A DNA stretch of 47,141 nucleotides, taken from contig CALJOJ010000008.1 of NCBI GenBank assembly GCA_937981665.1, positions 1 to 47,141 of the forward strand, given 5' to 3'. The position numbers and the translations under genes are program-made. Under the pieces are notes generated by a model. It was not told where the DNA came from. It did no database searches and saw only the letters and a program-made list of their open reading frames with translations. This DNA is from an uncultured Rubritalea sp. (GTDB lineage Bacteria; Verrucomicrobiota; Verrucomicrobiia; Verrucomicrobiales; Akkermansiaceae). Positions 23,352 to 26,756 of the stretch are shown one piece after another; positions within the stretch are counted from its first letter, which is position 1; each line of letters begins with the position of its first letter.

Positions 23352-25070
23352 ATGAGTAACGAGAACGAATATCAGAACAATAATAGACCTTATTCATCCC
23401 AAGTAGTAGATGGAGATGACAGAGCTGCTAGCCGCGCGATGCTTTATGCGGTGGGCTTTGAAAAAGAGGATTTTAAGAAACCTCAGATCGGTATCGCTTC
23501 TACCTGGAGTCAGGTCACGCCGTGTAACATGCACATTGATAAGCTAGCTGTAGAAAGCGCGAAGGGTGCTGATGCTGCTGGTGGTAAGTCGATGATTTTC
23601 GGGACGATCACTATTTCTGATGGTATTAGTATGGGTACAGAGGGGATGAAGTATTCGCTCGTGAGTCGTGAAGTGATTGCAGATAGTATTGAGACTGTAG
23701 TGGGCTGTGAGGGGATGGACGGGCTGGTAGCGATCGGTGGTTGTGATAAGAACATGCCTGGTTGTATGATCTCGATCTCTCGATTAGACCGCCCAGCGGT
23801 ATTTGTATACGGAGGAACTATCCTTCCTGGATGTGCTACACTTAAAGGTAAAGACGAAGATCTCGATGTTGTTTCTGTATTTGAGGCGGTTGGTAAACAT
23901 GCCTCTGGAGAATATAATGACGAGGAACTAGATAAGGTAGAAGGCTGTGCTATCCCAGGTGCTGGCTCATGCGGTGGAATGTATACTGCGAATACGATGG
24001 CGAGTGCTATCGAGGCTCTCGGGATGTCATTACCTAGTAGCTCTGCTCAGGCAGCTGTAGGTGATGATAAGCTGATAGACTGCTTCGACGCTGGTGCAGC
24101 TGTGGTAAATATGATTAACAAGGGCATCAGGCCAAGTGACATCATGACTCGTAAGGCATTCGAGAATGCGATCACGGTAGTCATCGCTCTCGGGGGATCT
24201 ACTAATGCAGTGCTACACCTTCTTGCAATGGCGCATGCGGCTAACGTTGAGCTTAGTATTGATGACTTCACAGAGATCGGTAAGCGCGTGCCAGTGGTGG
24301 CTGATCTTAAGCCAAGTGGTAAGTATGTGATGGCAGATCTTGTAAGGATCGGCGGTACTATTCCGCTGATGCGTCGTTTGTTAGAAGCTGGTCTTCTTCA
24401 TGGTGACTGCCTAACAGTAACTGGTAAGACAATGGCTGAAAATCTCGCTAATTCATCACTAGAATATCCAGAAGACCAGAAGATCATCCTTCCATTAGAA
24501 GCTCCTAAGAAGAAGGATAGTCATCTACGCATTCTATACGGAAACCTAGCTTCTGAAGGTTCAGTGGCTAAAATTTCTGGTAATGAAGGAACAAGCTTCA
24601 CAGGAAGTGCGAAGTGTTTCGACTCTGAGGAACTCTCACTTCAGGCTATTCTTGCTGGAGAAATTTCTGCAGGAGATGTCATCGTAGTGCGTCACGAAGG
24701 ACCAAAGGGTGGGCCGGGAATGCGTGAGATGCTAGGGCCAACTGCTGCTGTAATGGGTAGAGGTCTTGGTGATAGCGTAGCGCTTATTACTGACGGCAGA
24801 TTCTCTGGCGGTAGTCACGGGTTTGTAGTAGGTCATATCACACCTGAGGCTTTTGTTGGCGGTGTTATTGGTCTCTTGAGAGATGGTGATGAGATCACTA
24901 TTGACGCAGAAAATAATCAGATCAATGTGGCTCTCAGCGATGAGGAGATAGCGGAACGTAGAAAGAGCTGGGTCGCTCCTGAGCCTCGCTACCGTCGTGG
25001 TGTCTTGGCTAAATTCGCTAAGCTAACTACCTCAGCATCACTCGGTGCGGTAACTGATTCTGGACTTTAA
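23352..25070 (+). CDS. ilvD: Dihydroxy-acid dehydratase
   Basis: IlvD dehydrates dihydroxyacids in valine, leucine and isoleucine synthesis and carries an iron-sulfur cluster. Cluster cysteines sit in [10 protein letters not shown] and [14 protein letters not shown]. The 572-residue length is normal for the shorter, [2Fe-2S]-type branch; cluster type is inferred. The C-terminal [21 protein letters not shown] is the second signature. The selenoprotein-like lipoprotein gene starts 45 bp downstream and may share its transcript. Confidence 0.95.
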
Positions 25071-25115
25071 TCAAATCGTGTGCTATGGGTACACCGATAA
25101 CTTAAATCAAACTAT

Positions 25116-25742
25116 ATGAAACTAAAACACATATTAAGCATGATTGCTGGTCTAGTAACACTGACTGCAACATCATGTAATGATAAGTCTACAGCAACTA
25201 ATGAAGCTGAAGTTACATCTCCAAGTGCGACTGAAGCACCTGCAGAAGTAGCGGAGTCAACAGAAGTAGCTGAAGAAGCACACGCAGCATACTACGTAGA
25301 GTTCCTTGGAAACGGGGGCTGAGGAGTAGGACGCAAAGCCAGTTCGGCTTTAAAGTCAGTTGAGGGAGTTGATTCAATCATTCTCTCAGGTCTTCGCGCT
25401 ACAGTAAAAATGAAAGACGGCATCGTTCTTTCAGAAGCTAAAGTAGAGGAGGTTCTCAAGGCGAAAGGCCTTTCATTCGTATCTAGATCAGCAGTTGCAG
25501 AGGCTAAGCCAGCAGTGGTGTATGTTCTCAATGTAGCTGGATGTGGCTGAAGTGATACCGAAGAAAAAGCTCGTGTAGCTTTTAACAACTACGATCACGT
25601 GACAAACGTGTACATCGGCGAAAAAACTGAACTCTGGATGGATGCAGACGTGGCTCTTGATCAAGAGGCAGTTGCAGCCACTCTTAAAGAAGTGGGTTTT
25701 GAACTTGAAGGATTATCAAAGGCGGCTGAGTCAATGTACTAA
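25116..25742 (+). CDS. Candidate selenoprotein lipoprotein with two Sec codons and two HMA-like domains
   Basis: Read through two in-frame UGA codons (25320-25322 and 25548-25550), this gene gives 208 residues ending at TAA. Residues 1-20 form a signal peptide and Cys21 is a lipobox cysteine (TATSC). A Thr/Ala/Glu-rich linker follows. Domain 1, about residues 57-122, starts YYVEFLGNGG-Sec69-GVGRKASSALKSVEGV. Domain 2, about 133-205, starts VVYVLNVAGCG-Sec145-SDTEEKARVAF. Both resemble the beta-alpha-beta heavy-metal-associated (HMA) fold, with Sec near the second cysteine of CxxC. Domain 2 adds Cys143, giving C-G-U. TGG codes for Trp in the same gene, so UGA as Trp is unlikely. Each UGA has a SECIS-like hairpin. 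Conventional gene calling would stop at residue 68. Function is unknown; metal or mercury binding, or a redox role, is inferred. Confidence 0.85.
25335..25351 (+). promoter_or_regulatory. Bacterial SECIS-like hairpin for UGA 25320
   Basis: AAAGCC and GGCUUU form a perfect 6-bp stem with the 5-nt loop AGUUC, starting 12 nt after the UGA. Known bacterial SECIS elements have a short stem-loop about 11-20 nt after UGA with a G among the first two loop bases. All of these conditions are met. Confidence 0.78.
25565..25583 (+). promoter_or_regulatory. Bacterial SECIS-like hairpin for UGA 25548
   Basis: AAAAGCU and AGCUUUU form a perfect 7-bp stem with the 5-nt loop CGUGU, starting 14 nt after the UGA. 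The G is the second loop base, as in the first hairpin. Confidence 0.78.
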
Positions 25743-25768
25743 TCTTCCTCAAGTAGGATAAAAATTTC

Positions 25769-25812
25769 AGCCAGTGAGCTACGTGTTGATTACGCGGCTC
25801 GCTGGCTTTTTT
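25769..25812 (+). terminator. Terminator of the selenoprotein gene
   Basis: An 11-bp stem (AGCCAGTGAGC with GCTCGCTGGCT, one G-U pair) with a 17-nt loop is followed by TTTTTT. It lies 26 bp after the TAA at 25742. Its position supports the long reading through both UGA codons, since it follows the far stop rather than the first UGA. Confidence 0.9.
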
Positions 25813-25853
25813 GTGTCTAGATATTGTGATCTCTGAGAGGAGGTTATAAGGGG

Positions 25854-26756
25854 GTGAAACCTGGCTCTATATTTAGTTCAAATGTCCGTGACATCTTAAG
25901 ATCTGTGGCTTACAAAGTGACTATGAGATTTAACCTGCTTCGCGCATTAGCCCCAGTATTTACGGCAGTTTCTTGCACGCTTCTTTCTAGTTGTGGGCTT
26001 GCTGTCATGATGTCATCTGATCCTGCTCCAGTGCTTACGCCTGTTCAGCCAGCTCCATTGGCTAAAAATGTCCAGTACGTGGCACCTACTATAAAGGCTC
26101 CTACTCTAGTGAACCCTTCATCCAGTCTCTCTAGTGACATTTCAGGGAATACTCAGATCTCATGGTCACGTGGTAACCCAAACCAGAAGTACATTGCTCT
26201 CACATTTGACGATGGTCCAGTGACTTCTAACACGACACGCTTGTTAGACATGCTTAAACGCAGAAATATCAAGGCAACATTTTATGTATTAGGTAATCGT
26301 GTACAAAATAACCCATCACTGGTGAAGAGAATGGTGGCTGAAGGACATGAGCTTGGTAACCACACGTGGACACACGGAAAGCTCACTAATATGAGCGATA
26401 CTAAAGTACGCTGGGAGCTAGATAAAAACCGCGATGCCATCGTGGCAGCTACAGGGATAAAGCCTAGAACGATGCGCCCACCTTATGGTGCGCTTTCTAC
26501 TAGACAAAGAAACTGGATTTTCAAGGAGTACGGCTACCCGACTATCCTCTGGGATGTAGATCCTGAGGACTGGAAGAAACCAGGGATATCAGTTGTTAAA
26601 GATAGAATCCTTAGTAAGACGCGTAATGGTTCTATCATCTTGTTACACGACCTTCACAGTGTTTCAGTAGATGCAGTTCCATCTACTGTGGATGCTCTTC
26701 TTAGAAAAGGATACAAGTTCGTGACTGTATCTCAGCTTATTGCTCTTAGTAAATAG
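25854..26756 (+). CDS. Polysaccharide deacetylase, lipoprotein (CE4/NodB family)
   Basis: The NodB domain covers about residues 110-295. It shows TFDDGP, the metal-binding HTWTH, RPPYG, and a C-terminal LLHDLH. Such enzymes remove acetyl groups from chitin-like oligomers, peptidoglycan or xylan. A signal peptide with lipobox LLSSC follows ATG 25923 (MRFNLLRALAPVFTAVSCTLLSSCG), then a Pro-rich linker. The GTG at 25854 has the better ribosome binding site (AGAGGAGG at 10 nt) but adds 23 residues before the signal; either may be used. The substrate is unknown. Confidence 0.85.
   Translation: MKPGSIFSSNVRDILRSVAYKVTMRFNLLRALAPVFTAVSCTLLSSCGLAVMMSSDPAPVLTPVQPAPLAKNVQYVAPTIKAPTLVNPSSSLSSDISGNTQISWSRGNPNQKYIALTFDDGPVTSNTTRLLDMLKRRNIKATFYVLGNRVQNNPSLVKRMVAEGHELGNHTWTHGKLTNMSDTKVRWELDKNRDAIVAATGIKPRTMRPPYGALSTRQRNWIFKEYGYPTILWDVDPEDWKKPGISVVKDRILSKTRNGSIILLHDLHSVSVDAVPSTVDALLRKGYKFVTVSQLIALSK

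Follow-up and report, generated by a model that had tools for sequence, protein, structure and literature searches.

A predicted two-selenocysteine protein of tandem heavy-metal-associated domains in Rubritalea and related Verrucomicrobiales

Contig 8 of a 2.7 Mb assembly, whose host is Rubritalea or a close relative within the Verrucomicrobiales, carries a gene with two in-frame UGA codons, and this raises the question of whether both codons specify selenocysteine (Sec) and, if so, what a protein with two such residues might do. The gene was analyzed within a stretch of 47,141 nucleotides, here called the window. Its frame lies on the + strand (25116..25742), extends over 208 codons from an ATG at 25116 to a TAA at 25740-25742, and contains UGA1 as codon 69 (25320..25322, + strand; context GNGG-U-G) and UGA2 as codon 145 (25548..25550, + strand; context GCG-U-S). 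The coordinates, Sec69 and Sec145, and the spacing of 76 codons proved exact in the preliminary description of this DNA, which had been made from the sequence alone and had proposed a lipoprotein of two domains resembling heavy-metal-associated (HMA) domains. As also described there, a strong terminator follows only the far TAA: an intrinsic terminator is located at 25769..25813 on the + strand, where a fold of -28.2 kcal/mol (z -5.5) precedes a T run, and a pattern scan of 24900-26000 detected no other terminator on this strand. The neighboring genes are ilvD and a polysaccharide deacetylase gene, and the gene, which has its own terminator, is taken to form a single-gene transcript. TGG, which had been read as Trp in this gene, is used normally in the larger open reading frames of the window (173 codons). 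TGA is the stop codon of 3 of the 31 larger frames, and UGA is thus a stop elsewhere in this genome.

Homologs of the predicted protein were found in 28 of 98 relatives, each with exactly two in-frame TGA codons and none with Cys at these sites. A profile search identified full-length homologs in 50 of 387 sampled genomes of the order, all of them again with exactly two TGA codons; the aligned positions were read in 36 of the 50 (the 28 and eight more), and both UGAs occupied the same aligned positions in every case, with Cys in none. Both Sec columns of the alignment, including that of UGA1 in 28/28 homologs, are invariant, as are the Gly residues just before them, and UGA is kept at both sites in members with as little as 22% identity to the copy in the window. 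Named carriers are Rubritalea marina, R. profundi, and Roseibacillus persicicus. A search of the genome contig collection with the window protein alone gave no match, and a profile of eight members retrieved 16 loci from it. In a wider sample of the phylum, full-length matches were restricted to the same family; the matches beyond it were short, weak, and situated in other proteins, mostly in HMA domains of long, ATPase-sized frames. Pairwise dN/dS stayed well below 1 in the segment preceding UGA1, in the one separating the two UGAs, and in the one following UGA2, and it did not exceed 0.27 in the segments past UGA1 and past UGA2 wherever it could be calculated. Judged by these comparisons, purifying selection acts on the sequence downstream of each UGA.

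Homologs with Cys in place of Sec at residues 69 and 145, which the preliminary description led us to expect, did not emerge. Orthologs of this kind were absent from the 98, 388, and 387 genomes of three overlapping samples, and Cys forms exist only as distant HMA paralogs with CxxC motifs, for example, on contig 2 of the host genome (G000:C2). The latter, L112 (G000:C2:10354-10761), is a Cys-only counterpart with a signal-like N terminus and two HMA domains, both with a CxxC motif (GMTCTKC and GMSCIKC), and is a paralog of the two-Sec protein, not an ortholog. Cys-for-Sec orthologs are usual in known bacterial selenoprotein families, though not essential.

selA, selB, selC, and selD are all present in the host genome. 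The gene for tRNA-Sec (UCA) reached 60.4 bits with the Rfam model (cut-off, 47), and the TCA anticodon was seen in its sequence; this locus (L001, G000:C33:420-512), matched by the Rfam model, was not called by ARAGORN with default settings. The selB gene is a 638-residue frame on contig 41 that scored over the model cut-off, and selA is located on contig 58. The selD gene (L079, G000:C4:4148-5074) has an in-frame UGA of its own in the context VSCGGUASKL, SelD itself being a selenoprotein. In comparison across genomes, selA was detected in 27 of the 28 genomes with the two-Sec gene versus 19 of the 70 without it (Fisher p 8e-11, uncorrected for phylogeny), and the sole carrier that lacks selA is an assembly of 83% completeness. 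The preliminary description had named three outcomes that would refute its reading, namely, a genome without sel genes, stops or other residues at these sites in homologs, and a decayed pseudogene. None of them occurred, the last being countered by the dN/dS values.

Each UGA is followed by a hairpin. Hairpin 1 (25335..25351, + strand; AAAGCC-AGUUC-GGCUUU, a 6-bp stem with loop AGUUC) starts 12 nt past UGA1, and hairpin 2 (25565..25583, + strand; AAAAGCU-CGUGU-AGCUUUU, a 7-bp stem with loop CGUGU) starts 14 nt past UGA2, which places the apical loops 18 and 21 nt downstream of the respective UGA. Both stems are perfect, both loops comprise 5 nt with G as the second base, the folding energies are -10.2 and -8.9 kcal/mol, and the published model of bacterial SECIS elements is satisfied in all its constraints (PMC13188914 section 5). 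As single sequences, the hairpins have an unremarkable fold z of approximately -1.2 to -1.3, and one sequence by itself would not convince as evidence for a SECIS element. Across the 28 homologs, a loop nGUnn was found at a fixed distance from the UGA, with G in 28/28 at both sites and U in 27 and 25, respectively. At this fixed offset the mean stem pairing was 5.79 of 6 for hairpin 1 and 5.86 of 6 for hairpin 2, as compared to a median of 2.1 to 2.2 of 6 over all offsets from -60 to +159 nt. The perfect stem-loops reported at 12 to 14 nt, with G as the second loop base, are present as described, and their position, loop, and covarying pairing are kept in the 28 homologs. The peptide encoded over both stems, K-A-[RS]-x-A-L, is nearly identical between the two domains, which raises the possibility that the SECIS constraint has shaped helix 1 of each domain.

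Conservation of this peptide over both stems, along with a single-sequence z of only about -1.2, might be taken to mean that the hairpins are a mere by-product of the protein sequence and not SECIS elements, but third codon positions, which are largely free to change synonymously, stay paired. As a covariation control, we used 505 pairs of third codon positions lying 2 to 8 codons apart across the whole gene in the 28 homologs, and the four third-third pairs of the stems rank as the best paired among them, with 28, 28, 27, and 27 of 28 homologs paired. The first pair of hairpin 2 is T-A in 5, C-G in 18, and G-C in 5 homologs, without an unpaired row, and three or more coupled changes can be placed on the tree. 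Moreover, at site 2 of L038-L041 the peptide is altered (VRGTL, LRADL) and the stem is kept. On the strength of the third-third codon pairs the by-product explanation was rejected as highly improbable, and each UGA has its own covarying SECIS hairpin. It can also be asked whether both UGAs are true stops that leave a functional 68-residue product, or whether the gene is a decayed pseudogene. UGA does serve as a stop for some genes of the host genome; however, homology and purifying selection run past both UGAs in all homologs, UGA is retained at both sites across families where adjacent positions vary, the SECIS stems covary, the strong terminator lies past the TAA, and the fold of domain 1 is complete only beyond UGA1. 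In view of conservation, dN/dS, and covariation, chance or a pseudogene was rejected, and we give this explanation next to no credence. Insertion of Trp, Cys, or Gly at UGA through a suppressor or recoded tRNA might be hinted at by the Gly-rich stretches around both sites, but it is at odds with the complete Sec machinery, with the occurrence of selA in nearly all carriers of the gene, with hairpins that meet every published constraint, and with other genes here that end in UGA. It was rejected on account of these UGA stops and of the complete Sec machinery, and it likewise has virtually nothing left to recommend it. We regard it as nearly certain that the gene encodes a real selenoprotein with two Sec residues, although protein-level evidence of Sec at either UGA is lacking and the actual insertion of both residues is inferred.

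What kind of protein results from reading through both codons? AlphaFold2 models of two different family members, built with Cys substituted for Sec, predicted two betaalphabetabetaalphabeta domains of high pLDDT preceded by a disordered N-terminal stretch. In the window copy, HMA-like domain 1 comprises residues 58-127 (25287..25496, + strand; block pLDDT of about 90 or more) and HMA-like domain 2 residues 134-203 (25515..25724, + strand). The fold of domain 1 is completed only downstream of UGA1. Both domains are homologous to each other, with U aligned on U (hhalign E 1.6e-13). Foldseek matched the models to the tandem HMA domains of ATP7B and CopA and to CopZ (TM 0.77 normalized by target), and the family profile matched Bacillus subtilis CopA in the PDB over two stretches (E 2.6e-9), domain 2 aligning to the HMA domains of copper ATPases. 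PF00403 was matched by 20 of the 28 members at E<=1 (best 1.2e-7), the window copy alone giving no match. Profile and predicted fold together uphold the two HMA-like domains of the preliminary description, with Sec placed at the first metal-site Cys.

In the alignment to copper-ATPase HMA domains, Sec145 coincides with the first Cys of MxCxxC (GMxCxxC), and each Sec occupies the first-Cys place of the HMA CxxC motif, the second Cys having been lost. The MxCxxC motif as such is absent: domain 1 has GxGU-x-x-x and domain 2 Gx[GT]Uxx[TN], with T, N, S, or a similar residue at the position of the second Cys, and 25 of the 28 mature proteins have no Cys at all. Sec does take the expected metal-site position, that of the first ligand, but without the second Cys this is not a like-for-like CxxC metal site. 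In the AlphaFold2 models Sec is situated just before helix 1 of its domain, the helices comprising H71-80 after U69 and H146-156 after U145. A pTM of 0.70 to 0.72, reached with about a fifth to a quarter of the residues disordered, suggests that the two domains may be placed rigidly relative to each other; this rests on pTM, without a Sec-Sec distance.

The assignment as a lipoprotein found only partial support. A signal-peptide-like stretch extends up to Cys21 (25116..25178, + strand), a possible lipid attachment site, but the lipobox of the window copy is weak (TATS-C). The close relatives L020 and L024 have LASC-Cys, no lipobox-type Cys was found in family members outside the Rubritalea branch, and most of the family has signal-like N-terminal stretches of other kinds. 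Lipid anchoring, if it occurs at all, is confined to the Rubritalea branch, and secretion of the protein is inferred from its signal-like N terminus.

Heavy-metal selenoproteins are already known, as are HMA selenoproteins bearing a UxxU motif. The best-matching NCBIfam model is NF041115 (UxxU_metal_bind, a "putative mercuric reductase" selenoprotein), which likewise combines an HMA-type domain with a total of two Sec, located at the metal-site loop, and was matched by 25 of the 28 members at E<=1 (best 4.7e-9). However, this is a one-domain model of 74 positions with both Sec in a single UxxU, whereas each of the two domains of the two-Sec protein has a single Sec and lacks a second ligand. 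Membership was rejected because there is one U per domain and no UxxU and because the cut-off of 95 bits was not reached, the best score in eight members scanned being 26.7 bits. Scores were read for the copy in the window and for eight other members, and in none of these did a model of NCBIfam release 20.0 reach its cut-off. Proteins of PF00403, such as CopZ, MerP, and the N-terminal domains of CopA/ATP7B, have the same betaalphabetabetaalphabeta fold, in tandem in B. subtilis CopA. In contrast to these, the two-Sec protein has Sec for the first Cys, no second Cys, and Gly or a variable residue for Met, and it stands alone with a signal-like N terminus. MbdU, the metal-binding double selenoprotein (NF045648), shares the two Sec and the metal-binding label (PMC13188914 Table 1) but is a 468-position model with a CU motif; membership was rejected, as none of 58 genomes exceeded the 600-bit cut-off and the two-Sec locus gave no match at E<=1. 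The MerT/CopZ fusion-like heavy metal transport selenoprotein (NF045683) likewise has an HMA-like domain, and the putative mercuric transport selenoprotein (MerT, PF02411), for which a single Sec is listed, likewise has Sec in a heavy-metal protein, but by name both are fused to or made of a membrane transporter. Only 2 of the 28 two-Sec members matched NF045683 (best E 0.041).

A second group of HMA selenoproteins in the order, with the motif G[LM]xU-xxG-C, comprises L107 (G011:C47), L108 (G628:C4), L109 (G634:C17), and L110 (G612:C46). It has one domain and one UGA in three genomes and two domains with two UGAs in G011, keeps the second Cys (UxxxC), and shows hairpins with AAGTGC/GCACTT stems downstream of the UGAs. 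The three members scanned with NF041115 all scored below the cut-off of 95 (78.9, 32.5, and 50.9 bits).

No tandem HMA protein in which each domain carries one Sec is among the 119 prokaryotic selenoprotein families of a catalog from May 2026 (PMC13188914 Table 1). In the literature searched, Rubritalea and selenocysteine were named together only in passing, on another subject, and no pairing of Roseibacillus with selenoproteins or of "heavy-metal-associated domain" with SECIS was found. Most unusual are Sec at two sites without exception, the lack of any Cys ortholog among those found, and the absence of the second thiol from a metal-site fold.

For the function of the two-Sec protein, we propose that SelB and tRNA-Sec would read both UGAs on a single-gene transcript, each with the aid of its own SECIS hairpin, to yield a protein that is exported and consists of two HMA domains, each of which would present one selenolate at the N terminus of helix 1, at the first-Cys place of MxCxxC. 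Since the chain holds one isolated selenolate in each of its two domains and nothing else for them to pair with, the two Sec seem to work together, and they would most likely pair at the cell envelope, where they may hold or capture a soft metal ion, e.g., Cu(I) or Hg(II). The position of Sec145 on the first Cys of the metal motif speaks for a metal-like role, as does the UxxxC retained in other HMA selenoproteins of the order. Against it, no classical bidentate metal site is left without the second Cys, and no conserved neighbor ties the gene to metal transport or resistance: none was found across distant genera, synteny being seen only among closer relatives, so a genomic link of this kind is absent. 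A different use of the same two residues is conceivable, in which an envelope peroxidase or reductase would shuttle Sec69 and Sec145 between the selenol state and an internal diselenide (or a selenenic acid), the HMA fold being a mere scaffold. Sec directly ahead of helix 1 is at the usual site of reactive selenols, and since 25 of the 28 mature proteins lack Cys, a Sec could find no partner within the chain other than the second Sec. HMA domains are, to our knowledge, not a usual redox scaffold, and Sec takes the position of a metal ligand here. Domain 2, with U-A/S-x-T/N, resembles the UxxT of cataloged GPX-like and OsmC-like selenoproteins, and most uncharacterized selenoproteins are probably redox proteins (PMC13188914), but the closest cataloged selenoprotein, NF041115 with its UxxU, is filed as metal binding. 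We consider such a redox enzyme possible yet doubtful. The complete proposal, a two-Sec tandem-HMA protein with a soft-metal role through paired selenolates, is favored only slightly, since the metal role, Sec insertion, export, and the cooperation of the two sites are all inferred.

Current computational methods for discovering bacterial selenoproteins rely on Cys homologs to call a UGA as Sec (PMC12013277, PMC13188914), and the lack of a Cys form among the orthologs found probably explains why the two-Sec family is absent from NCBIfam and from the 2026 catalog. Sec at both sites in all 50 genomes, down to 22% identity, indicates that Cys is evidently inadequate there. It is tempting to speculate, with no more than tentative support, that this is a lineage-specific family with two obligate Sec and no Cys form, in which a shared bis-selenolate soft-metal or diselenide site at the envelope has selenium as its only chalcogen ligands. 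The two-Sec family lends itself well to the question of which functions require selenium and are beyond sulfur, and with Sec in place of the metal-site Cys and without a second thiol, natural bis-selenolate metal binding becomes testable.
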